Both the position numbers and the translations under genes were made by a program. A DNA stretch of 64,000 bases from Fragilaria crotonensis (taxonomy: Eukaryota; Bacillariophyta; Fragilariophyceae; Fragilariales; Fragilariaceae): NCBI GenBank assembly GCA_022925895.1, contig JAKSYS010000023.1, forward strand, positions 62,001 through 126,000, read 5' to 3'. Below, one piece after another: positions 13,868 through 64,000 of this stretch (positions are counted from its first letter, which is position 1; every line of letters begins with the position of its first letter). Under the pieces are notes generated by a model. That model made no database searches. It saw nothing but the letters and a program-made list of their open reading frames with translations, and was not told where the DNA came from.

Positions 13868-15481
13868 TTAAGCCTTCGTCCCTCTATCCGGGTGGTAAAA
13901 GAAACAGTCTGGTCGAGAGCAATCCTTGCCGAACTGACACTCGACTTTGTGGAGCTTAGTGGCACGCCGTTGTTCTTTCTTCTTTTCCTTTTTCGAATGA
14001 GCATGACCACCACCCCATTTAAGAACAGAAGGCGCGGCCTTCTTCGAAGTGCCCTCCTTCTTAGTTTTACACAGTCTTCCTGACACACCATTGTCAGTGT
14101 ACTCAACATCGGCAGCTGGAACCGTAATGTCCTCTTCGACGCAGAGGGGACAACGAAGCACAGGATTCGTGTCCTTTTTGATATTTGACATGCAACCAGT
14201 ACACATCAGAACAGGAACACCACACATGGTACACTTTTTCTTTCCAACATAACGATCCCATGGTGTGTTGCACAAGCAACAATGGGTCTCCCGTTTTGTC
14301 GCATCTTTCGACTTGCGCACGACGCCTCCATCTCCATTCAAATCACCAGCGCTGACGGCTTCTCGTTTGTCAAACACAAAGTTCTTACCCCTCCAGTGTC
14401 CGCCATCTGGGAAAGCTTTCAAATACCGTTCGATGCCACCTTGGAGTTGATAAATGCCCTTGACCTGGTCTCCCAATTTAGTGTTGACGTAGGCCGACGC
14501 ACGTTCGCAACGAACACCACCGGTGCAGTACATCAATACTTGTTTGCCCTTCAATTTTTCTTTCGTTTCTGGTCTCTCAAGCCAAGCTGGAAAGTCAGTC
14601 GACTTGCGCATTTTGGGGTCCACATACTCGGCACCGATTCCTTCCTGTCCGTTGAAGCGACCAATGGCCGCCTCGTAGTGATTGCGAACGTCAATCACAA
14701 CTGTCGAATCCTTCTCCAAGAGTTTATGAAATTCTTGAGCATCGACGTGGGTGCCACCTTTCTCAAGGGGAGCTTCTCCTTGGCGAATTCCGTAAAAGAC
14801 CAACTCTTTGACTGGCAGCAATTTCAAATCCTTGAAATGTCGATCAGGCGAGACTCCATCAATAAATTTAAAGTCTGTGCTGGCAAATGCGATAGGATCA
14901 AACCGTCGCAAATCTTCGCAAAAGTGGCGCAACGTGGTCTGCGACGACATGACGTCGGAATCCACCGACGACACGGTCGCATTCACTCCCTCGGGCGCAA
15001 TTCGAATGCGACCACCCAATGTCTTGCGAGTTTCGGCAACTTTTGCCAAGTATGCAATGAGATGATCGACTTTTGATTCTGACCAATTTGCGTATTGATA
15101 GAACAACAGCAGTGATGCCTTGGCAGTGGATTGTTTGTCGTTTGAAAACAACAGTGCGGATTTGATGACCTTGGCCTTTGGAAACCATTTACCAAGCGAT
15201 GATACCTCGACATTAGCCGACTTTGGGATTTCTATAGGCTCATAATTTGCAAGATAGTCTGGTTCTGACGCCGTGACTTGTTGCGGCTTTGACTCAGTCG
15301 TTGCATCGACCTCGGTGTTCACACGGCTCGTCTCCTGCACAGTCGATGGGCAAATTGAAGTAGAACCCTTCAGCTTTTGCTTCTTTTGACTCTTCCGCTC
15401 CTTTTTACTCAATCGCCGTTTCCTTGTCACTTGATTGGGTTGCGCATCACTGTTCGACTGCAATTCACTTTCGCCTCTCAT
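13868..15481 (-). CDS. TSTD2: Rhodanese-domain protein of the TrhO/UPF0176/TSTD2 type with added zinc fingers
   Basis: The middle (about residues 120-370 of 537) matches TrhO/UPF0176, which in bacteria hydroxylates U34 of tRNAs; the eukaryotic relative is TSTD2. Visible features are the acylphosphatase-like LLFYQYANW and RIRIAPEGVNATVS, then the rhodanese part STVVIDVRNHYEAAIGRF and the active loop MYCTGGVRCERASAYV with the catalytic Cys, then QLQGGIERYL. The N-terminal 100 residues are polar and Lys-rich. The C-terminus adds a Cys-rich block with four CxxC pairs (CCLCNTPW, CTMC, CTGC, CPLC) and a final CX5CX4CX3H finger (CQFGKDCSRPDCFFYH), which suggests RNA binding. tRNA hydroxylation here is inferred from the family only. 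Confidence 0.82.
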   Translation of the reverse strand: MRGESELQSNSDAQPNQVTRKRRLSKKERKSQKKQKLKGSTSICPSTVQETSRVNTEVDATTESKPQQVTASEPDYLANYEPIEIPKSANVEVSSLGKWFPKAKVIKSALLFSNDKQSTAKASLLLFYQYANWSESKVDHLIAYLAKVAETRKTLGGRIRIAPEGVNATVSSVDSDVMSSQTTLRHFCEDLRRFDPIAFASTDFKFIDGVSPDRHFKDLKLLPVKELVFYGIRQGEAPLEKGGTHVDAQEFHKLLEKDSTVVIDVRNHYEAAIGRFNGQEGIGAEYVDPKMRKSTDFPAWLERPETKEKLKGKQVLMYCTGGVRCERASAYVNTKLGDQVKGIYQLQGGIERYLKAFPDGGHWRGKNFVFDKREAVSAGDLNGDGGVVRKSKDATKRETHCCLCNTPWDRYVGKKKCTMCGVPVLMCTGCMSNIKKDTNPVLRCPLCVEEDITVPAADVEYTDNGVSGRLCKTKKEGTSKKAAPSVLKWGGGHAHSKKEKKKEQRRATKLHKVECQFGKDCSRPDCFFYHPDRGTKA

Positions 15482-20701: not shown

Positions 20702-21559
20702 CTATAGCGACTTGATTGCGTTGGTTACAACCTTTGTCGCTTGTACACCATCAACGTCTCGAGCAAGCTTTTGAATCCTTTCGTCCGCGATCACGAAAAA
20801 CGTCATTGACCATCGCTTATCGCCTAAGGCAGTGTAGGATCTCATCCACTCCATCTTTTCATCGGAGTAGATCTCAACCTTGAAGGCGTCGTTCTTCTTC
20901 ATCCACCTTCGATTCTCGGCTGGACTATCAGCGTTGATTACTATCAAGCGTTCTAACATATCAGGGGGGAGAGTTGCTGCCAATTGCTTGATTGTACTTC
21001 GAAGCTCTGTCGACTTTGGACGTGGGTCGCAAAGAATTGCCAAGTATTCCGCCCGTCGTACTTGGTTCTTTCGCAGCCACGGAACCAATCGAGCGGCGCC
21101 CGCGCTCCCGAGAACATTTTCCGATTTGATGGAGACGAGTTCCTCAAACGGCGCAGCGGGGGCAGCATCTCCCTCAAATCGTCGATCGACACCGGCACGC
21201 GCCAATTCGATCTCTTCTTCTTCTTGCTCTTGCGAGAGGTAGCCACCGGATTCAAAATCATTGCCAATGGCGACGGCCGTACTCCTCAACATTTCTTCGA
21301 ACCGCAAGCGATCATTTCTTATCTTCATTTCTTCGTCAGAAAGCATTGCCTTCTGTTCATCTGGAACAGAATCTTCTCTTTGTTGCTTCGCCAACTCCAG
21401 TCGTCTCGCCAATTCTCCTTGTTTGTTGCGAGCCTTGTTCAAGCCTTTGCCCATGAACACGGCAACATTTTTTGCTCTGATCTGGTTGTCATGAATTGTG
21501 AAACCATGGGTGCTGGAGGTAATGCTTACCAAAGCGAACGCGAAAGGTAGCACCAACAT
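20702..21559 (-). CDS. Plastid-targeted protein with thioredoxin-fold-like C-terminal half (unknown function)
   Basis: The 285-residue protein has a signal peptide ending STHG-FTI, so a plastid location is likely. The middle (about 40-120) is charged and probably coiled-coil (QGELARRLELAKQQRED, QEQEEEEIELARAG). The C-terminal 130 residues alternate strands and helices: RRAEYLAILCDPRPKSTELR, LERLIVINADSPAENRRW, FKVEIYSDEKMEWMRSY and MTFFVIADERIQKLARDV. That order suggests a thioredoxin-like fold but has no CxxC pair. I do not recognise a named family. It is convergent with the SET gene, only 64 bp apart. Confidence 0.6.
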   Translation of the reverse strand: MLVLPFAFALVSITSSTHGFTIHDNQIRAKNVAVFMGKGLNKARNKQGELARRLELAKQQREDSVPDEQKAMLSDEEMKIRNDRLRFEEMLRSTAVAIGNDFESGGYLSQEQEEEEIELARAGVDRRFEGDAAPAAPFEELVSIKSENVLGSAGAARLVPWLRKNQVRRAEYLAILCDPRPKSTELRSTIKQLAATLPPDMLERLIVINADSPAENRRWMKKNDAFKVEIYSDEKMEWMRSYTALGDKRWSMTFFVIADERIQKLARDVDGVQATKVVTNAIKSL

Positions 21560-28829: not shown

Positions 28830-29810
28830 TCACACCGCTGGTACCTTTCCAACGTAAAGTTGAATATGAGCCTGCTCCCACGCTTCAAATTCAAGGATAG
28901 AGAGATTTCTGGTCTCTTCTTCCGTAATATCAGCCAACGCTTTCGGTCTGTCTTGGATCAAAATCATGGTTTGCTGAAAGTACAAATTGGACGCTTCCAC
29001 ACTAGGGTTCCCCCACTCTTCCCACGAGAGTTGGCAGGACGAAGATGAAAGCAAAGTCCACTCCAAGCCTGAGTTGCGGAAAAACTCTCGTTCCAGTTCA
29101 GGTTTCCTCCACCGAGCAGCCAATATAACGGTCCCTTTTGTAGGATGAAGAAGACGTCTAACCGTAGCAACTAGAGAAGGTATAGCTTTGACATTGTAAA
29201 GCAAGTCCGAACCGATGATACAATCGTAGGGTGGCTCTGTTGGCGGTTCGCTTTCTTCACGCCATGTAAGTGAGCGAGCGCGTACTTTTGAAGGCAGAAT
29301 ATCCTTGTTTCGTTCCAGGTTGTAAAGGAGCAGGGGCATGGCAGACGGCATGTCCGTCAACATCAATGAGCCGTCTTTTCCTAGCTGCTTAATGGCAAAT
29401 GCCATACCGAACAATCCTAGTCCAGAACCAAGTTCCAGCACTCGCTTCGGATGCACGTCAAAGTCGATCTCATTCAGACGCCTCGCGATTTCAAAGCCTG
29501 CGGCCCACGGCAATGCGTGGGTTCCGTCACAATCGTCGTCATCGAGGTCGAAATCAGCACTCTCCTCGGGAGCAACATCGTTTGGTATTTCGGAATTCAA
29601 CTCAAGTATTATCCCGCCTCCCAAGTCTACCTTGGTGATGAGGTCGTCGCCATCATCATCTCGCTCGTTGTCGGCAACTTGTATTTCGAGCACGTCCCCA
29701 GGCTTGGATCCGTATGGTACCGGTACCTCCAATTCTTGACCATTCACAACGAAAGTTAAGGTGTCACCCTCCTCGGCATTGTCCGGCACTTGGAGTGTGA
29801 GTGTCTTCAT
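28830..29810 (-). CDS. METTL21/FAM86-type (MTF16) methyltransferase with N-terminal beta domain
   Basis: The 326-residue protein has a seven-strand AdoMet methyltransferase core. Motif I is VLELGSGLGLFGMA, the acidic loop is LMLTDMPSAMPLLLYNL, and the post-motif is DCIIGSDLLYN, close to the D-x-x-Y signature of family-16 protein-lysine methyltransferases. About 85 residues precede it. They begin MKTLTLQVPDNAEEGDTLTF and VPVPYGSKPGDVLEIQV, a small beta module often seen in diatom proteins, then an acidic linker. An upstream in-frame Met at 30074 exists, but that DNA is GTAC-rich and looks like promoter, so I start at 29810. The substrate is unknown. Confidence 0.72.
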   Translation of the reverse strand: MKTLTLQVPDNAEEGDTLTFVVNGQELEVPVPYGSKPGDVLEIQVADNERDDDGDDLITKVDLGGGIILELNSEIPNDVAPEESADFDLDDDDCDGTHALPWAAGFEIARRLNEIDFDVHPKRVLELGSGLGLFGMAFAIKQLGKDGSLMLTDMPSAMPLLLYNLERNKDILPSKVRARSLTWREESEPPTEPPYDCIIGSDLLYNVKAIPSLVATVRRLLHPTKGTVILAARWRKPELEREFFRNSGLEWTLLSSSSCQLSWEEWGNPSVEASNLYFQQTMILIQDRPKALADITEEETRNLSILEFEAWEQAHIQLYVGKVPAV

Positions 29811-30199
29811 GACTGATGCTTTGACCCGAACTTCAGATGGCAATGGAAAGGCTAGCGCCGTCGTCGCTGCATGTGCTGTGCGCAAATCTAACCATCGGAT
29901 TTTGCCTGGGACGAGTAATGTGCTACAGTGACAAGTTCCAGGTAGTATTACACTACATGTACGAGAGAGCGCGATGTATTTGGTTCTGGTACAAGTACTC
30001 GAGTATGTCATAGTCCTCCGTTGACGAGGCTGATACCTGGACTCAAATAGTATATATTCTGAGATGGACAGCACTCTGATGTTCAGTCTAGGCCGGTAAG
30101 AACCCTAGAGTTCTTGAGTCCCGCGTGCACTTCCTTATGCAAGAAATTTATTAGTGATGAAACAGAGGCAAAGTGCAGTTTAGTCGAGGATTAGATGGG
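29811..30199. promoter_or_regulatory. Upstream region of the methyltransferase with GTAC cluster
   Basis: A cluster at about 29935-30010 has ACTACATGTACGAG, TGGTACAAGTACTCGAGTA. It abuts the 3' untranslated region of MsrA, which is read toward it. Confidence 0.5.
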
Positions 30200-30205
30200 T
30201 ATTTC

Positions 30206-30251
30206 TCAGGTCAGCGAACCCCCTGTTCGAAACAGTATTCGAGACCGTCAT
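30206..30251 (-). ncRNA. Candidate SECIS element in the MsrA 3' UTR
   Basis: On the minus strand, 55 bases after the MsrA stop, ATGA (30248-30251) is followed by a stem GGUC/GACC, a CG/CG extension and an unpaired AA. Then comes a mini-hairpin CUGUU-UCG-AACAG, and the 3' arm ends in UGA (30206-30208). AUGA and UGA face each other so that tandem G.A/A.G pairs can form, the kink-turn core of eukaryotic SECIS elements. The AA bulge plus apical mini-helix fits the form 2 type. The stem between core and AA is about 8 nt, slightly short. Folded by eye only. Confidence 0.5.
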
Positions 30252-30305
30252 TCAAGTTTGGCCCAAGCAAACCTCCACCACTCCACTAAGCCCCCCCTTC
30301 AACTT

Positions 30306-30839
30306 CTACAAACGGGCCAAGAAATTCTGATGTCGGTCTTCTGCCATGAAAAACTTTGTTACAGGTTCAACGTCAACAAACTCAGTACCTTGGCAAAACT
30401 GCCTTGCCACAGCCTCCTGCGCAGAATTCATGTACCAGACTGCCGATCGATATTGTCGTTTTGTTGGATATGGCTCTGCCAGCCTTCTCCATTTCAGCAA
30501 AATTTGCTCGTACGAGACTATCGATGGATTGAACTCGACAAAGACAGCTTCCGTATAGTCCTTCATAGTTTGATAGGTTGGATTATCTTCGACGCCTCCC
30601 GAGTATCCCACAATGCAACGCAGTACCCCATTCATTGCTTGAAACTCGGGCTGCGGCCCCCAAAATCACCCACATGCTACAATGGCAATCTCATGGTTGC
30701 TTCGAGGAATCAATCCGATTTCGGGACATGCATTGCTGCTGGCGAGTGCTGAGTTCAAACGATGGAACGCTTGCGGCGTTAAAAGGGCCCGCAGCGGAAG
30801 GATCCAAAGGGCTAGCAAGTATGGAGTGAATCGATGCAT
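30306..30839 (-). CDS. MSRA: Peptide methionine sulfoxide reductase A, selenocysteine form, plastid-targeted
   Basis: MsrA reduces methionine-S-sulfoxide in proteins. One frame runs from the Met at 30839 to the TAG at 30306-30308, with a single internal TGA at 30666-30668. That TGA falls at the catalytic Cys of the GCFWG signature: the context is IAIVACG-TGA-FWGPQPEF. The frame continues with GYSGGVEDNPTY and KRQYRSAVWY, both MsrA-like. Selenocysteine at this position is known in algal MsrA (Chlamydomonas), and a SECIS candidate follows. The product is 177 residues with Sec at 58. The leader ends TPQA-FHR, a Phe+1 plastid signal; a further in-frame Met lies at 30899. The usual GHAE part is replaced by TEAV, so the enzyme is diverged. 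A plain nonsense mutation is the alternative. Confidence 0.8.
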
Positions 30840-32609: not shown

Positions 32610-33630
32610 CTAGAGTTCCTCGTATTGCTTGGCTTCTCTCTCATCCATTGCATCTGCATCGTCGGTTGTGGGGTTGAGGCTGTATTCAGATATATCCTCA
32701 GCGATATCTTCTTCCATTGGCACTGCTTCTTCCCTCTCGTTCTCTACTTGACTTGTCTCTTCCACACTTGGCGTGGCTTCTTCGGTCTCTGTCTCTACAT
32801 GACTTGTCTCTTCCACACTTGGCGCGGCTTCTTCCGTCTCTGCTTCTACTTGAGTGGTCTCGTCTTGACTTGTTGCAACTGCTTCCGTCTCTACTTGAGC
32901 AGTCTCTTCCTGACGAAGCACGTCGTTTTGAGTCGCCTTTTCGACATTCTCTTGCGTAGCGTTCGTAATTCCCGAATCACTATCAACCTTTGCAACAATC
33001 GCAACTTCCTTCTTTCGAAAATTGAATTTAATGGGAAAGGACGATGGATTGGACGACCTGAAAAAATTCAGGTCCGTTTCGTGGCCCAAACGTCGCAGTG
33101 TCACCATGGTGGCCACCACCACCAGGACTGTAAAAATGGCTGTTTCCAGGATCCGATGGACGCGATGTCCTCGTCCCGAATCGACAACCACAGATGTTGT
33201 CTTTTTCTTGGACTTTGTTTTAAGAATTCCCTCGGGAATTATCGGCATTAGCGGAGGGTCTGAGAGTGGTGGTGGTACTGTAGTTGTTGTGGTTGTAGCA
33301 GCAGCTGCTGTTGTCGTCGTATGTTGTTGTTGTGTCCCTGTGCATGATAAGCTCATATTCGTCGTCCGCTTCCTGCACGGTATCTGTCGTGGTGATCAAT
33401 TTGGAATCAGAGGTGACGACAACATCTGGGGTCAAGATAATTTCTCGCAAGCGTGTGTCGCGATTCGTGGGTTCAGTGTCAACGCCACCGCCGTCATCGT
33501 CGTCGTCATCATCCGCTTCGTCTAATGGATTACAAAAGCTACTAAAGAGCTTCGAGAGATGTTCCAAAGGATGGAGCTTTGCAGGTAAGAACTCTACTGG
33601 AGCTGATGGAGTTGGTGAAGTTGGTGCCAT
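32610..33630 (-). CDS. Low-complexity single-pass membrane protein, split by an apparent frameshift
   Basis: Two overlapping minus-strand frames read as one gene: 33630 down to about 33330, and about 33340 down to 32610. The first half is acidic (EADDDDDDDGGG) after MAPTSPTPSAPVEF. The second holds a Thr/Ala run, PPPLSDPPLMPIIPEGIL, a basic patch, one membrane helix (ILETAIFTVLVVVATMVTL) and an acidic repetitive tail. The frames cross inside an ACA/CAA microsatellite (about 33300-33345), where one base too many or too few would explain the shift; I find no normal intron that does. The function is unknown. A sequencing error or allele difference is as likely as true loss. Confidence 0.5.
32755..32901. 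repeat. Coding minisatellite, 51-bp units
   Basis: Two 51-bp units (32755-32805 and 32806-32856) and a diverged 45-bp unit (32857-32901) encode 15-17 residue repeats of the form SVEETSxVExExEEAxP in the tail of the membrane protein. Confidence 0.75.
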
Positions 33631-39097: not shown

Positions 39098-41406
39098 TTA
39101 TGCCTCATCAGATCCGTTCCCGAGACTTTCATGGCCAGGCATGACCTTGCCAGCTGGGATGCATAGAATCTTTCGCATCGCGGGAACATCTCCTCGTTTC
39201 TTTGCTTTCTCGAAATTGCGAACATCCTTTTTGCTGACTGTTGCACCCCAAAAATTGATGGTAGCATCCTTGTATTTGTCTCCATTGGCGTTAACGTTTC
39301 CGCCAGCCTTCTCAAGGACTTCGTCACCTTCCAATTCTTTCTCAAACTTCTTCTTTCGCGCTACAGCCTTCATCTCACGCTCTTGGCTCACACCCTGGAT
39401 GGTGACAACCCCGTCGGCAACAATCCACTCTTCCTTGCATACCGAACTGTAGAACTCCTTGTTGTGAGAAATCATCAAGACACTGCCACCCCACTCATTA
39501 AGAGCAGCAGAAAGCGCACCAAGCGCTTCACGATCCAAGTAGTTCGTGGGTTCGTCCAAGACAAGCAAATGCGGACAATTCCACATGGCCGCAGCCAAAA
39601 CAAGCTTGACTTTCTGGCCGCCACTGAGACCACGGATCTTTCCGTAGGTTCCAAACTCCTGCGCAAGGCCAAAGTCATCCAAATGCTTCTGAACCTCCGT
39701 AATAGTTGTTGGCCTGAGATCCAAGCCTGCATCCTTGGCAGCAATCTTTTCGTCTGTCTGCTTCAGTAGCTTCTCAAATCCCAAGGCAAGGAGTGCCTCC
39801 TTCGAATAGTACTTGTTCTCCTTCTCACGAACATTGACCTTTTTAACCTCGTACTCGATCACGCCAGCGCGGACACGACGACTCCAGATGCCTTCAAGGT
39901 TGAAATCTTTGATTGCTTTCTCTTCTTCAGGTCCAATCTTGAAACCTTCACTCTCCATTTTTTCCCTGTCGTATCCATCCTTGAAGCGCCACTGAATGTA
40001 CGACGCAGGGCTGTTCTCAATGTGCTGTTCGACGTGATGGAAGGCATGCTGGGCAACGTAAGCGACGCGAAGGTTAGGGTGCACAAAGAATTTGCATGTA
40101 CCGAGGTTGGATGGTTGAGTTTCTCCTACAATCATCTTCACAAGTGTCGTCTTTCCCGCACCGTTGGCACCCAAAACGGCAACACGAGTGGATAGACTCA
40201 TCTTGAGATTAATGCCCGTGAGCTGATTCTGGGTAGCACCAGGATAACGAAAGCAGACGTCAGACATTTCCAAGAACTTCTGGGTGGAGGTTTTGATACC
40301 TTCCAAACGACCGGGTTCAGGGAATTTGAAGCGGAGGTCAGTGGTGGAGAGTTCAAAGTAATGCTTCGCCTGGGGCTGCTTCTTGACAAATTCCTGAGGG
40401 GAAAAAACAAAGACAAAAGTGAGCAACAGAGGCAAAGAGCCGACATCTACGATCGGTATCTCCCCCAAATAAATTCACGTACCGACATGGTCCCTTTGTA
40501 GTGCACAAGCTTACGGTAGGGACCCCAGTTGGGACGATTTTCGTAATGAATGATATCCGTGCAAATGTTTTCCATGAAGGGAGTGTCGTGGGACACTGTG
40601 ATGACAGTGGTTTCCTTTAAATTTTGCAAATAGTTGGTGAACCACTCAACAGTCTTGCTATCCAAATGGTTCGTTGGCTCATCGAGCAACAAAATGTCTG
40701 GCTGCAACAGAACGGCACGGATGAGTCTGAGCTTCATCTGCCATCCACCCGACAAGGCACCAATGGTTCCGTGCATCATGGTGTCAGTAAATTTGAGGGT
40801 TTCCATCATTTCGATACATCTTTCCTTGGATCTGTTCGTAGTTTCCATAAGGTCTGCAAGCACAATGCGTGCTTCGTAGACTGGGTCAACATTTGAACCA
40901 GAGTCACAGTAGTGGGTCATGAGATGGTTTGGCCATCCATCGAGCTTGCCCTTTTCAATAGCAGTCATCAGCGTTGTCTTTCCCGCACCGTTTTGTCCCA
41001 CAAGACCGTAACGGTGTCCACGGAGGAGGCGCAACTTGGTTTGATGAAGAAGAATCTTTCCGCCGTACGCCAAGTTGAAACGAATATTGCAGAGTTCTTC
41101 TGATCCATCGTCTTCACCGTCACCGTAAGATTCCGCGTCGTCAACACCGACAATGGCAGCTTCTGTGGCATTGCGGAAAGACTCAATGATTCTATCGGAA
41201 CCAGTCTGAACAAGAGAAGAAAGGTAAGGAGCCAATGCTTCCTCCCAAACAGTGGGTTGGTAGTTGTTGGTATCTGCAAGGCCAGCAGCCAAAAAGGCGC
41301 AATACCCAATGACTTCTTCTCCTCCGGGAGCGTCCTCAATGGAGGTCTCCTCAAGGGAGGCACGCAAAATGCGCAAGATATCACTTGGAGGCTCAAGATT
41401 CGCCAT
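39098..41406 (-). CDS. eEF3-like ABC-F ATPase without HEAT repeats
   Basis: Exon 1 is 40483-41406 and exon 2 is 39098-40393, giving 739 residues; the 89-bp intron is GTACGT...CCTCAG. Two ABC modules are complete. The first has GLVGQNGAGKTT, LSGGWQMKLRL and ILLLDEPTNHLD. The second has VLGANGAGKTT, LSGGQKVKLVLAAA and LLVLDEPTNYLD. Inside the second module lies the eEF3-type chromodomain-like insert (SRRVRAGVIEYEVKK). IRFNLAYGGKILLHQT and YKGTMS-EFVKKQPQAKHY match fungal eEF3. Yeast eEF3 is 1044 residues because of an N-terminal HEAT domain; here only about 110 residues, probably the four-helix bundle, precede the ATPases. It should act on ribosomes; tRNA release from the E site is the inferred role. 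Confidence 0.85.
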
Positions 41407-42466
41407 GGCTGATTGCAAAGGAATTGATTGAGAGTTGAGGTGCAAAATGTGTCGTTGCCAGATTCGTGACTTCGTGGGCGCGGTGTCGTGAAGTGGAAGG
41501 AGAAGGAAGCCAAAAACGAATGACCATCAACTCGATCGCAAATATTTAACGATGACGTGGGTTTGATTGGTAATGCGCACCAACAAGGTTGAATCTTGCA
41601 AAGCGACAGATGGACAGACGTTAAGTTGTCATCCGTATTCGGGGAATGCATGCATATATGCACTGTGTGTTATCAAGTAAAAGTACAATTTAGGTACAGG
41701 ACTTTGGTAGGAGTACATGTAGCAGTACTTGTGTTACTGGTTACTGGTTAGGAGTGTACCCCTGTAATGGTTCGGTACTGGTACTGTACTCTGTACAGTA
41801 TGACATACATACTGACAGATTTGTCGGGAGTCGGGAGTCGGGAGTACAGTGATGCTCCTGTAGCACTACAGTTGAAATGTACTAGTACCTGGTAGTACTG
41901 ACAAATATGAACACCAAGTCACTATCGGCACGGCAGACATTTCGTCGATGTCAATCGACCATGTCATTGCGTTCTCGACGACCAGCACGAGCGAATGCGA
42001 ACAACAGCGGTCCAATTGTGTAAAATCTCGACAGCTTATACAATGTAAACTTTGTCAGTAGTAGACGAGGCCGACCATGGGTGAGGGCTTGCCTTGTTGT
42101 TGGGAACTCTACCATTGTGTTCGTTTGCTTGATGGTTCACCTCTATCCAGAGCAGGTCAAGGACACTGCAAGCATGACATGGGGCGCCCTGTTTACGGCG
42201 CAATGTACCTGTACCCTTTCCGTCATTTCGTTGTAGAACGATGGAAAGCCACATCCTTGCAAGGATTACTGTTCCGACCAACTTCAATGGACATTGGCAC
42301 CGAATCTTGGGGGGCTCCCTCCCATCCCTTTGGTAGCTTCGCCGTGTTTGGAAAGTGCAAGAAAGAAGAAGTTTGTCATTAAACAATAATTACATCCCAT
42401 TGATCCCCGAAGCTCGACTTCGCATCCGCCCGACTATCAATCGCTCGTTCAAACTCAAATTCGAGA
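41407..42466. promoter_or_regulatory. Upstream region of the ABC-F gene with dense GTAC cluster
   Basis: A cluster spans about 41690-41905 with GTACATGTAGCAGTACTTG, GGTACTGGTACTGTACTC and a GTCGGGA tandem triplet at about 41824-41845. A short open frame at 42077-42382 (+) has no family resemblance, and I do not call it. Confidence 0.5.
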
Positions 42467-57800: not shown

Positions 57801-59169
57801 TGCATTGCGAGAGAAGGAGCGAAGCACCAGTATGAAATGGTTCGTCCCTTTGCGCTGTTGCCGGGGATCTTCGCTGAAACATGTACTCGATATGCTCGAG
57901 CTTTTGCAAAACATCGGCCTTCGGTAGTCTCACCAAAGACGCGCTTTACACATCCAATGAACAAGTCGATCTTGGTTTGGCCCTTACTGCTACCAGATCT
58001 CAAGTCCATAATGATGTCAGAAACCTTTTTTGCCTCGTTGACGAACATGGCATGATTCTCGTGCGTAATGCGCGAGCCTTCTTTGAAAATGTTCATCATA
58101 TACTCCCCACTAAAGACCTGCCGATCATTCGGGATCTTTGTCAGCACATACTCTTCCAAACCCAGAAATATTGATTTTAAGCGAACTAGATTGTCGGCTG
58201 AGATTCTATCCACAAGCTCCGGCATAGCTTGTTGGTAAGCAATCACTTTTTGAACCTCACTGATACATCCGCTGATGTCTACACTGGACAAATCAAAAGA
58301 TGCTGAGTCGCTTGCAAAGCTCTCAAGATTGTGAGCCTCATCGAAAATGACGACAGCATTACTCCATGGAACATCTTGCAGCGTCGTTTCACGAGCGTCT
58401 TTGTCGAATAAATAATTGTATGGCACGAGTATGAGTTCTGCATCTTGGACCAATGATCGTGTGTAGTAGAAAGGACAGACTTTACGCGTATTCCCCATGA
58501 CAAGTAAGTCTTCCATATCCATGACAGGTTGCGTTCCATTGGCACCTGGTTCGTTCGCTTCGGGTTGAAAACCCTCCAGATTGTTGCGAAAGCGGCACTT
58601 GCGATCTTTCCCAATCGACTACACTCATGATTGATGTCTGTCACAGTCGATCTCGCAGTTTTCACCTTTGGATTCACGCACATTTGTTCTCTGGATCCCA
58701 GCAATGCATGCTTGGGTCTGTAACGTGTGCTTTTGAGCTCACGGATCACTTGCGACAGCTGCGAATGTGTCCTCGAGGCATATATGATTGTTGGAGCACG
58801 CGATGGTTTACAGGGAGCGTCGGCATTTGATATTGCCGATTCTTGAGTCATTTGATGCGATGGATTCTTCTGCAGAGATCGAGCTTGTTCTCGTTGCCAT
58901 GCCAAAGCGGCACAAAGTAAACAAAGAGTTTTGCCGGTACCAGTAGGTGATTCGAGCAAGGCATTTTCGGAGTGATGCAAGGCGTCCAAGACCTTGCTCA
59001 TATAATCTTCTTGACATTTGTATGGTCGGAAGGGGAAGTGAATCGACACACCGCGAAGTTCTACAGTCGTCGGAGGCGATGACGGAACAGATGGCTTACG
59101 TTTCGAGTTTAATGCTGTCTTTTCGATCGCTGGGTTTCCCTTCTCCTCTCTCTTCTTTACTGCTTTCAT
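54867..59169 (-). CDS. RTEL1: RTEL1-like Fe-S DNA helicase with C-terminal RING (one intron, one frame break)
   Basis: RTEL1 unwinds D-loops and telomeric structures. The N-terminus has YKCQEDYMSKVLDAL and Walker A SPTGTGKT, then YASRTHSQLSQV. Four Fe-S cysteines are placed in REQMCVNPK, NHEC, RKCRF and KVCPFYY. Walker B is VVIFDEAHNLE. Helicase domain 2 has SIIVTSGTLSPL, CRGKISEGIDF and QAVGRVIRNKDDYG. The C-terminal third has a helical, harmonin-N-like region (about 55690-55960) and a C3HC4 RING completed by an intron at 55086-55147 (GTACGT...TTCACAG): CSICEQICKE joins PYMPPCGHLVCSSC and later CPVC. Near 58604-58612 the frame changes with no plausible intron; one missing G in GGGAAAG would explain it. 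Product about 1,410 residues. Confidence 0.85.
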
Positions 59170-60000: not shown

Positions 60001-63000
60001 GAGAACTGTCTGACATCTCTTGGAGACTCACTGAGTCTCCTAGATGAATGAAAGAGAACAGTCCAATCCCACCAAGGATGGGACTGCTCTCTTGTTTTAA
60101 AAACTAGTCTCATAACTTTTAATAAGGTGCAACTATTAATCCTTTAAAACTAGCTACAAATTAGCCTCCAAAATAAAACTGATTACTTCGCGTAGGGCAC
60201 AGTGAATTCACTCCCAGTAGTCAGTACATCACCATGACGAACAAAAATAAAGGTAAGCGCAAAGCGTCTGAAAATTCGTCTGCGGAACATGTCGCATTCC
60301 GTCAGTCGAACCTGTTGAATCCGCCGTCGATTTATTTTGATAGGCCCAAGAAATCGACAGAGAAATCTGACGATGAGGGCAACTATAAAAAATCGACGTC
60401 CCGATTGAAGCCGGAAATGCGAACTCCAAAAATATCGAAAAGAGAATTCGTTTGTTTGGAGACTACGACACCTCGCCAGAAGCGTGGGTGAAGTGGCGCA
60501 TAGAGCTCGAGGAGGTCATTCGTGACTATCCGCTTGAGTCTGGCGAACAGAAAGCGTCTATGGCTCTTGCACTACTTAAGGGCAGTGCAAGAGACAAATT
60601 CCAGCAAACGTGGCGTAGACTCGATACGGAGAACGTAGCGGGTCCCGCACGACAGAGGAAGACTCCAAACGAGATTTTCCAGCTGGTAATGACGGAAGTT
60701 GGTAAGTCTTACTTCCCAATCTTGCATGCGTACCAGAAGCAGGTGGTGTACATGCAGCATTACCTACGTCTTGGAAGTCATACGGTTCGTAACTTTGCTA
60801 CGCGTTTACGCGAGCTAAATAATTACTTACCGTATTTTCCACGGGAAGAAGGTAAGGCTGAACCGTCTAAATTGTCTGATGACGACTTGATTCAAATTCT
60901 CAACCAGGCGAAGCCTGAAGAATGGCAAGCGGTCATTCTTGGTGCGAACATCGAGCTTTATAAGTTCGATTTTCAAGGCACTGTTGATTATTTTGAGAAA
61001 CTTGAACTCAGACAGGCACTTGAGGCCAAACGTCGTAAGGTGGACAAATCCGATAACCCTGAGGGCACGAAAAAAGGGCAATTGGAACGGTAAGTCCGCT
61101 GACAAAATGGCAACGGCCAAAACACAGTCGTCTAAGTATAAGAAGTGTGCGCATTGCGGTCGTACGAATCATACTACGAAAGACTGTTGGTTTAACCCTG
61201 AGAACAAGGGGGAAACAGAAACCTGGTAAGAAAAATGTCGGTTTTACCGACCGAAATGTCTTGATGACGCAGGAGCAGCTTAACGCTATCCTTGAGCGTC
61301 TTCCACGCAACCCGAAGTCTGGCAAGCGTAAGGTCCGCGACTTTACACCCGAGAATTCGGATGCAGAAATCGTGGAAATGTTCAGTCCCAAGACAACCAT
61401 TAGCACAGTAGAGACTAAAGAAGATAGTGACGAAAGTTCCATCTACTTTGGTTCATTTTCTAGTGAGATATTGCCATCCAAAGATGGCCATGGCAGTAAG
61501 AGACAAAAACAAAAACACAAAACCACCGAAGTCGTGGGCGAAGTGATGGGAACAGGCAAACCCGGCATTGTTCGCATTTTGCTAGACACTGGAGCATCTG
61601 CGACAATTATACTTAAGGATGCGATACGGGGCTTAACTGGACCGGTATTCAAAACATCACATACACGATGGCACACTATGGGTGGTCAATTCGTAACGAA
61701 ACTGCAACGGGAAATTAAATTCAAATTACCCGAGTTTAGTATGTCAAAGATAGTACAATGGGTGTGTCACGAGGACACACATACGTTGCAAGAATGCACA
61801 GTATGACATGATCATCGGTGCAGATTTACTATCAGAATTGGGTATCGAAATTAATTTCAATACACAACGGATAGTATGGGAAGGTGTAGAAATTCCCATG
61901 AAAGAAAAACACGTAATATCCGATCTACAGAATGCTACAGCTATCTACTACCACAGTATCGAACCTACGGTACTCAAGGAAGCAGAAGCGAGGCAGAAAC
62001 GTATACTGGATGCAGACTATAGTGCGTTAGATCTGGATGACTACGCACACATGGATACGCACCTAAGTAACGATCAACAAAAACAACTCGTACGTTCGCT
62101 ACGAAAGTATCCGAAGTTGTTTAGTGGAGGACTGGGCGTACTCAATGTACCGCCTGTACATCTCGAACTACGGCCCTTAAGTAAGGATGAGAAGCCGTAT
62201 CACGCTCGTCCGTTCCCTGTACCAAAATGCTACGAGGAAACAACGAAGAAAGAAATTCAACGTTTATGTGACATAGGAGTATTAACGAAGTGCAATGACT
62301 CCGAGTGGGCGGCACCAACGTTCATACAGCCTAAAAAGACTGGTGACGTTCGAGTCCTAACGGACTTTCGTGTACTTAATAGGTACATAAAACGTAAACC
62401 ATACCCGTTACCCAAGATTGCAGACCTTCTTCAGAAACTTGAAGGGTTTAATTGGGCAACGGCTCTGGACTTAAGTATGGGCTACTACCATATTGTCCTG
62501 GATAAAGAATCCAGCTATCTATGTACAATGATTGTACCCTGGGGCAAATATCGCTACTGTCGCCTACCTATGGGTTTGAATGGCAGTCCTGACATCTTTC
62601 AGGCCATAATTAATGACATTATGGGCGATTTGCCTAATGTGCGTGCGTACTTAGATGACATACTGATTACAACAGCAGGTTCCTACGAGGACCATCTTCA
62701 GCATGTTGAACTCGTGTTGCAACGCCTAACTGATGTTGGCTTTGCCGTTAACCTACGTAAATCCTCGTTCGCTGTGACCGAGCTTGATTACTTAGGATAT
62801 TGGATTACTCGTCGCGGTATCCAACCTCAACCTAAGAAAGTGGAAGCGATTATGCGGCTGACACCACCAACTACCAAACGGCAGTTAAGACGTTTCTTAG
62901 GTATGATCAATTACTACCGTGACATGTGGCGACGTAGAAGTCACATACTAGCACCGCTTACGGCGCTGTGTTCTGCCAAAGCTAAATTTATTTGGCACGA

Positions 63001-64000
63001 TAAAGAACAGAAAGCATTTGAAGACATTAAGGCCATAATAAGTCGAGAGACATTACTGGCTTATCCTGACTTCTCAAAAGACTTTCACATTTATACGGAC
63101 TCCAGTGATTATCAACTGGGAGCAGTCATAATGCAAAATGACCGTCCGTTAGCTTTCTACAGTAGGAAACTTAACAGCGCTCAAAAACGTTACACGACTG
63201 GTGAACAAGAGCTGTTATCCATAGTAGAAACACTTAAGGAATTCAAAAATATACTATTAGGTCAAAACTGATAGTACATACCGATCATAAGAATCTCCTA
63301 TATCAGAAAATGTCCACTGATCGTATAATACGATGGAGACTCCTGATAGAAGAGTTTGGACCTACCTTTCTACATATAAAGGAGAAAAGAACGTCATTGC
63401 TGACGCCTTGTCAAGATTAGATGCGAACTTCAATGAGAAGTTACCAACAGAGCCTACAAATGATACGATGGCTTACATCTTCATGACAAAACAGACGTTA
63501 AAGAAACTGACTTTCCGTTAAGTCCTATGCTAATCGCTAAATACCAACGGTTAGATAATGAGCTTAAACGAAGAAGTACGAAATCAAAAAGTCAGAACTT
63601 CAATACCAAAACAATTGAAGGAGTTGAGGTCATTACGTACCAAGGAAAAATATATATTCCTATTCAACTTCAACAACGCGTAGTGGCTTGGTATCATGAG
63701 TATCTAGCACACCCAGGCGAATCACGCACTGAAGCAACGATACGACAAACATGTACGTGGCCAAAATTACGTAGTCACGTTGAGACATTCTGTAAGACGT
63801 GTCGTACGTGTCAACTATTTAAGAAACAAAGGAAGAAGTATGGACACTTACCTCCTAAGGAAGCTGAAGAACTTCCCTGGTCTCGTGTAAACGTAGACTT
63901 GATTGGACCATACGTTGTACGTACTCCAACGTCTACGCATACACTTCGTGCGTTGACTATGATTGATCCCGTAACAGGATGGTTCGAAGTCATAGCAATA
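60001..64000 (+). mobile_element. Ty3/gypsy LTR retrotransposon, 5' part (continues past window end)
   Basis: This is a fossil or possibly still young Ty3/gypsy element; its 3' end and 3' LTR lie outside. A putative 5' LTR of about 200 bp may begin near 60007 (TGTCTGACATC), but this cannot be confirmed without its partner. Parts in order: gag-like region (about 60450-61090), CCHC zinc knuckle (CAHCGRTNHTTKDCW, near 61145), aspartic protease (LLDTGASATIIL, near 61580), reverse transcriptase (YLDDI box near 62650), RNase H (IYTDSSDYQLGAVI near 63090), zinc-binding and catalytic integrase (near 63660-64000). The order RT-RNase H-integrase defines Ty3/gypsy. The coding region is interrupted a few times within the window, so it is probably not intact. 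Confidence 0.9.

Follow-up and report, generated by a model that had tools for sequence, protein, structure and literature searches.

Selenocysteine (Sec)-containing forms of methionine sulfoxide reductase A (MsrA) are on record for several algae. The diatom Thalassiosira pseudonana is among them, as are Ostreococcus tauri and O. lucimarinus, the diatom case having been published in 2007 (PMC2375036), and a Sec-MsrA is also reported in Chlamydomonas (PMC9404770). MsrA is counted among the Sec proteins with the widest distribution in algae (PMC7539508), and one algal category, MsrA_b, has been described from picoplanktonic Mamiellophyceae and M. viride as a 'bacterium-like MsrA selenoprotein' (PMC6627142). 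In the MsrA of Clostridium oremlandii (CoMsrA), the active site is described as comprising, beside the GCFWG motif, Tyr47, Glu55, Gln89, Tyr90, His137 and a last Tyr, and the enzyme carries a C-terminal helical domain (residues 145-209) whose removal leaves almost no activity (PMC4479559, PMC4333827).

Here we describe an msrA gene with TGA at its catalytic codon, located in a 64-kb window (the whole stretch of DNA analysed), and weigh the explanations for that codon. We found no description of this particular gene in the literature searched, although it may well be present in a database.

An MsrA frame with TGA at the nucleophile position

The earlier note on this DNA had claimed a single frame in which TGA falls exactly at the catalytic Cys of GCFWG, and translation of 30839-30306 on the minus strand confirms it. 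The TGA is the sole internal stop of the frame, in the context IVACG-U-FWGPQPEF, and there is no second stop or frameshift (Table 1). Scored with C in place of U, the msrA product matches the Pfam family PMSR (PF01625; gathering score 23.7 bits) at E = 2e-26 (93.5 bits, residues 52-175). The note had further placed MsrA signatures on both sides of the TGA. This holds downstream, where the 119 residues match PMSR by themselves (2e-22, 80.5 bits), but only unevenly upstream, where the 57 residues alone match no Pfam family at E ≤ 1 because only about eight of them (EIAIVACG) belong to the PMSR domain; this 5′ part and the Cys together are worth approximately 13 bits.

Against TIGR00401 (msrA, an NCBIfam equivalog_domain model), the product scores 84.1 bits, below the curated cut-off of 108.1, and on sequence grounds the window MsrA is a divergent, shortened member of the family. 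A sequence search of the PDB returned 29 distinct matches, all titled methionine sulfoxide reductase A or A/B, the top seven of which are CoMsrA chains (4LWJ, 4LWK, 4LWM, 4U66 and 4W8C identified from papers, 4lwl from its title and 7c13_A from its similar score). An AlphaFold model, computed from 27 sequences (the window protein and 26 of the 80 relatives described below), has a mean pLDDT of 85 and a pTM of 0.75. When this model was used as a Foldseek query, 45 PDB matches were obtained at E ≤ 0.001. Of these, 44 carried Msr/Mxr1 titles, and sequence identifies the remaining one, 7c13_A, as an MsrA chain; the predicted fold of the window protein is that of MsrA. A second MsrA copy within the window was considered and rejected, the next best match having an E value of only 0.86.

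Table 1 Features of the msrA locus (window coordinates) and its bacterial TGA-form relatives
Feature	Position	Strand	Details
msrA coding sequence	30306-30839	minus	ATG, 177 codons and TAG; read as a single exon; one in-frame TGA
TGA, codon 58, inferred selenocysteine	30666-30668	minus	catalytic Cys position of GCFWG
msrA part 3′ of the TGA	30309-30665	minus	119 codons; most of the MsrA domain
Hydrophobic N-terminal leader, candidate bipartite plastid-targeting signal	30765-30839	minus	ends ...TPQA-F
Weak off-rule SECIS candidate	30187-30278	minus	AUGA, U at 30250; GA at 30207-30206; presumed 3′ UTR
AATAAA, possible polyadenylation signal	30147-30152	minus	
Bacterial TGA-form MsrA			L003, L004, L007, L010, L013, L016, L019, L023, L032, L034, L035, L048

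Prokaryotic relatives and tree placement

Relatives were collected by scanning bacterial and archaeal genome contigs with a two-row profile, and the best 80 of 418 encoding stretches were kept. At the aligned catalytic codon, which can be aligned in all of these best 80 of 418, TGT occurs in 41, TGC in 27 and TGA in 12, and given that one of the two search patterns required Cys, the TGA forms are probably under-counted. The 12 TGA forms are all bacterial by record title and include the two best matches (L003 and L004). L010 is the planctomycete Candidatus Uabimicrobium amorphum, and several other TGA forms are deltaproteobacterial. All 12 possess a C-terminal extension of 64-91 residues, placed where CoMsrA has its helical domain, and all 12 carry the motif [NS]ST..AR.NGY. 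The window protein has no such extension, and the best match of these extensions in the window reaches an E value of only 0.57.

Viral contigs scanned with the protein and with the two-row profile yielded no relatives. The plasmid and phage collections contributed 1079 and 21 records, respectively, all below 60% identity to the window protein, and the two records from these collections that were translated (L001 and L002) are both Cys forms.

In the trees, the branch leading to the window MsrA is very long (3.8). With an SH-aLRT of 95, the quick tree groups the protein with 36 Cys forms, and in the careful tree it falls in no supported set, the nearest rows being Bacteroidota Cys forms. Constraining the window MsrA to group with the Sec forms gave a likelihood 7.1 above that of the quick tree (p-AU 0.654, not rejected), and the same constraint with the Halorubrum forms added gave a p-AU of 0.691. 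The free trees put the window MsrA beside Cys forms, though unreliably, and neither placement can be taken as established.

Active-site residues and departures from the family

Six of the seven active-site elements are retained in the window protein. These are the GUFWG motif together with Y89, E97, Q129, Y130 and H170, which correspond to Tyr47, Glu55, Gln89, Tyr90 and His137 of CoMsrA and are each identical in 80 of the 80 kept relatives. The seventh, the last Tyr, is replaced by Phe173, versus Tyr in 78 of the 80. Further positions depart from the relatives: Y95 stands where all 80 have His, and residues 121-122 are Ala-Glu where the relatives have His (76 of 80) followed by Asp (55) or Asn (19). 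The loop before RQY is short, and a further stretch, beyond residue 149, is reduced in length relative to CoMsrA and the two plasmid forms.

Besides Sec, the window protein contains four Cys residues (C38, C56, C75 and C149). C56 lies two residues ahead of Sec (CGU; minus strand, 30666-30674) and is conceivable as a putative partner of Sec. The sequence ACGCFW is also present in some Cys-form relatives, for example L005, L008 and L009.

Search for a SECIS element in the presumed 3′ UTR

A SECIS element has NTGA, then AA or CC, then GA, and the published rule places AA 10-13 nt after the quartet (PMC2375036). A scan with the published rules loosened revealed nothing that fits the canonical SECIS form across the 495 nt between msrA and the next gene; Rfam returned no SECIS match at either gathering or permissive thresholds. 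The sole AA-type candidate in these 495 nt is the AUGA at 30250, in which the AA lies 8 nt after the quartet. It has GGUC/GACC immediately above the UGA/GA quartet, capped by a mini-stem, and it ranks 17th of the 74 scan matches on both strands of the window (128 kb), so approximately 0.07 equally good matches would be expected by chance in 495 nt. When the quartet and the AA are kept unpaired, helix II is lost in the best whole fold. The 92-nt SECIS core shows no advantage in folding over shuffled sequences (z = +0.56, 148 of 200 shuffles as good), but the 171-nt stretch 30310-30140 does (z = -2.85, 3 of 200). A weak CC-type match at 30045 has a spacing of 13 nt, and its whole energy of -12.2 narrowly misses the limit of -12.6 given in the literature. 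As for the true SECIS, it may be the AUGA candidate at 30250, may have a form or a place outside the scan, or may be absent. ARAGORN found no tRNA in the 64-kb window, a result of little weight for a stretch of this length.

N-terminal leader and neighbouring genes

The leader, MHRFTPYLLALWILPLRALLTPQAF, combines a hydrophobic core (hydropathy peak 1.71, residues 7-21) with an A-F step at which the -3 residue is Pro; the diatom plastid rule has F, W, Y or L at +1 (PMC4329603). The 21 residues counted from the leader F include one K/R, one D/E and three S/T, and are not basic. The plastid-type leader stated in the note is thus a plausible candidate reading of these features and no more, by which the enzyme would be directed to the plastid.

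Other genes in the window encode HSF, polyprenyl synthetase, IGPS, Ham1 and an Oxa1-type protein (60KD_IMP). Judged by these genes and by a retroelement-type reverse transcriptase, the window has the appearance of nuclear DNA from a diatom. The next gene downstream of msrA (28830-29810, minus strand) encodes a lysine methyltransferase of the Methyltransf_16 family (6.2e-26 over residues 117-246) with about 116 residues ahead of the matched part. A 285-residue product encoded at 20702-21559 on the minus strand may carry a leader (...STHGFTIHD) and matches AhpC/TSA below threshold (0.00037; 20.9 versus 26 bits); it is perhaps another redox protein. Near the right edge of the window, a retroelement-type reverse transcriptase/RNase H (RVT_1, RT_RNaseH_2, RT_RNaseH) is encoded at 61808-63271 on the plus strand.

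Coding character of the frame

Codon scores were based on 26 of the 31 listed ORFs of the window, leaving out three that overlap a longer ORF (14282-15076, 40968-41651 and 58279-59169), the low-complexity ORF at 32610-33356 and the reverse transcriptase at 61808-63271. The 119 codons downstream of the TGA score 0.084, compared with an in-frame mean of 0.115 and a 5th percentile of 0.035, and none of 4000 sampled out-of-frame pieces scored 0.083 or above. The 57 upstream codons score 0.014, a low value that might fit a leader and that lies close to the -0.001 marking the 5th percentile for in-frame pieces of equal size. Among 18134 stretches sampled from both strands, real genes included, 1636 contained a frame as long as this one with no more than one internal stop. 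Such frames are thus common in the window and openness alone is weak proof, the weight being carried by homology and by where the TGA falls. We considered and rejected a general recoding of TGA, which is unlikely because 7 of the 26 long ORFs in the window end in TGA as an ordinary stop.

Interpretation of the in-frame TGA

We consider it highly likely that this msrA gene encodes a selenoprotein. UGA codon 58 would be read through and Sec inserted by the eukaryotic SECIS/SBP2/EFSec route, the resulting selenolate would attack methionine sulfoxide, and glutaredoxin or thioredoxin would then serve as the thiol reductant that regenerates the enzyme. The same selenoprotein reading had been put forward in the earlier note and is by a wide margin the best account of the data; it finds good support in where the TGA falls, the intact and coding downstream frame, the conserved active-site residues and the bacterial TGA relatives.

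The alternative that survives best, although we judge it improbable, is that the catalytic TGC or TGT codon of a Cys-type MsrA was by chance mutated to TGA recently, or misread as TGA in sequencing, making the gene a young pseudogene or an artefact. Cys codons are one base from TGA, yet a Cys version of the frame offers 78 possible single-base nonsense changes, one of which falls at codon 58. Decay of the gene might be read from the alteration of several otherwise conserved residues (Y95, A121 and F173), but the frame has acquired no further stop or frameshift and its downstream codon use is normal. Likewise, the free trees place the window MsrA beside Cys forms, whereas 12 of the 80 kept prokaryotic relatives (the best 80 of 418) have TGA at the equivalent of codon 58. 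Scanning, folding and Rfam produced no convincing SECIS, but the use of Sec by MsrA is on record in a diatom (PMC2375036).

A second alternative, very improbable in our view, holds that translation starts at the internal ATG at 30635 to give a 109-aa MsrA-like product that lacks the active-site residue, or that the 57-codon upstream frame is a small ORF with no relation to msrA. The standard ORF list does give this 109-aa ORF and, upstream, one of 77 aa (from TTG), the two parted at the TGA, just as the note had foreseen in stating that automatic annotation would split or truncate the gene; moreover, the upstream part has no Pfam match of its own. However, IAIVACG before the TGA and FWGPQPEF after it follow the MsrA profile from position 2 onward, and this alternative would have the nucleophile and GCFWG lost while Y89, E97, Q129, Y130 and H170 were all kept. 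Most improbable of all is that the TGA is spliced out. Inside the frame, 41 GT-AG intervals of 40 nt or more preserve the reading frame and could excise it on paper, but none of the 41 restores a GCFW or SCFW motif, so any such splice would delete the active site.

Read as a selenoprotein gene, the locus is a clean case of a gene probably truncated at its own active site by ordinary annotation. If the leader is real, a methionine-repair selenoenzyme would be located in the plastid; in T. pseudonana, an MsrA protein is reported to be up 2.2-fold in high light, though this is maybe another MsrA and is not labelled a selenoprotein in that report (PMC5139114). If the off-rule hairpin of the 3′ UTR is functional, it would be of use in improving diatom SECIS models.

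Comparison with known Sec-containing MsrAs

CoMsrA, a 1-Cys-type enzyme (PDB 4LWJ, 4U66 and 4W8C), is the best PDB match of the window protein (6.5e-23, 33% identity). The two have in common a Sec nucleophile (predicted in the window MsrA), a short loop before RQY and five of the six active-site residues beside GCFWG. In contrast, CoMsrA is bacterial and is described as having no Cys (PMC4479559, PMC4333827), while the window MsrA has four other Cys residues and a leader. The window MsrA also ends three residues past the last residue aligned to CoMsrA and has no helical domain; lacking a C-terminal extension, it is not CoMsrA-like in full. It is conceivable, but in our estimate unlikely, that the window gene represents a compact Sec-MsrA that functions without a CoMsrA-type helical domain and with shortened loops, its Sec being inserted by way of an off-rule SECIS (AA at 8 nt) overlooked by standard models.

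Among algae, the window gene resembles the Sec-MsrAs of Thalassiosira, Ostreococcus and Chlamydomonas in belonging to the MsrA family, in having Sec predicted from TGA and in being, presumably, a nuclear gene of an aquatic alga. It differs from the selenoprotein genes of T. pseudonana, which were found via a SECIS search (PMC2375036), in offering an off-rule SECIS candidate only. The gene may belong to the algal bacterial-type category MsrA_b. It is not new in kind, as Sec-MsrA has already been published for a diatom and other algae, and its identification is therefore a useful annotation rather than a surprise.
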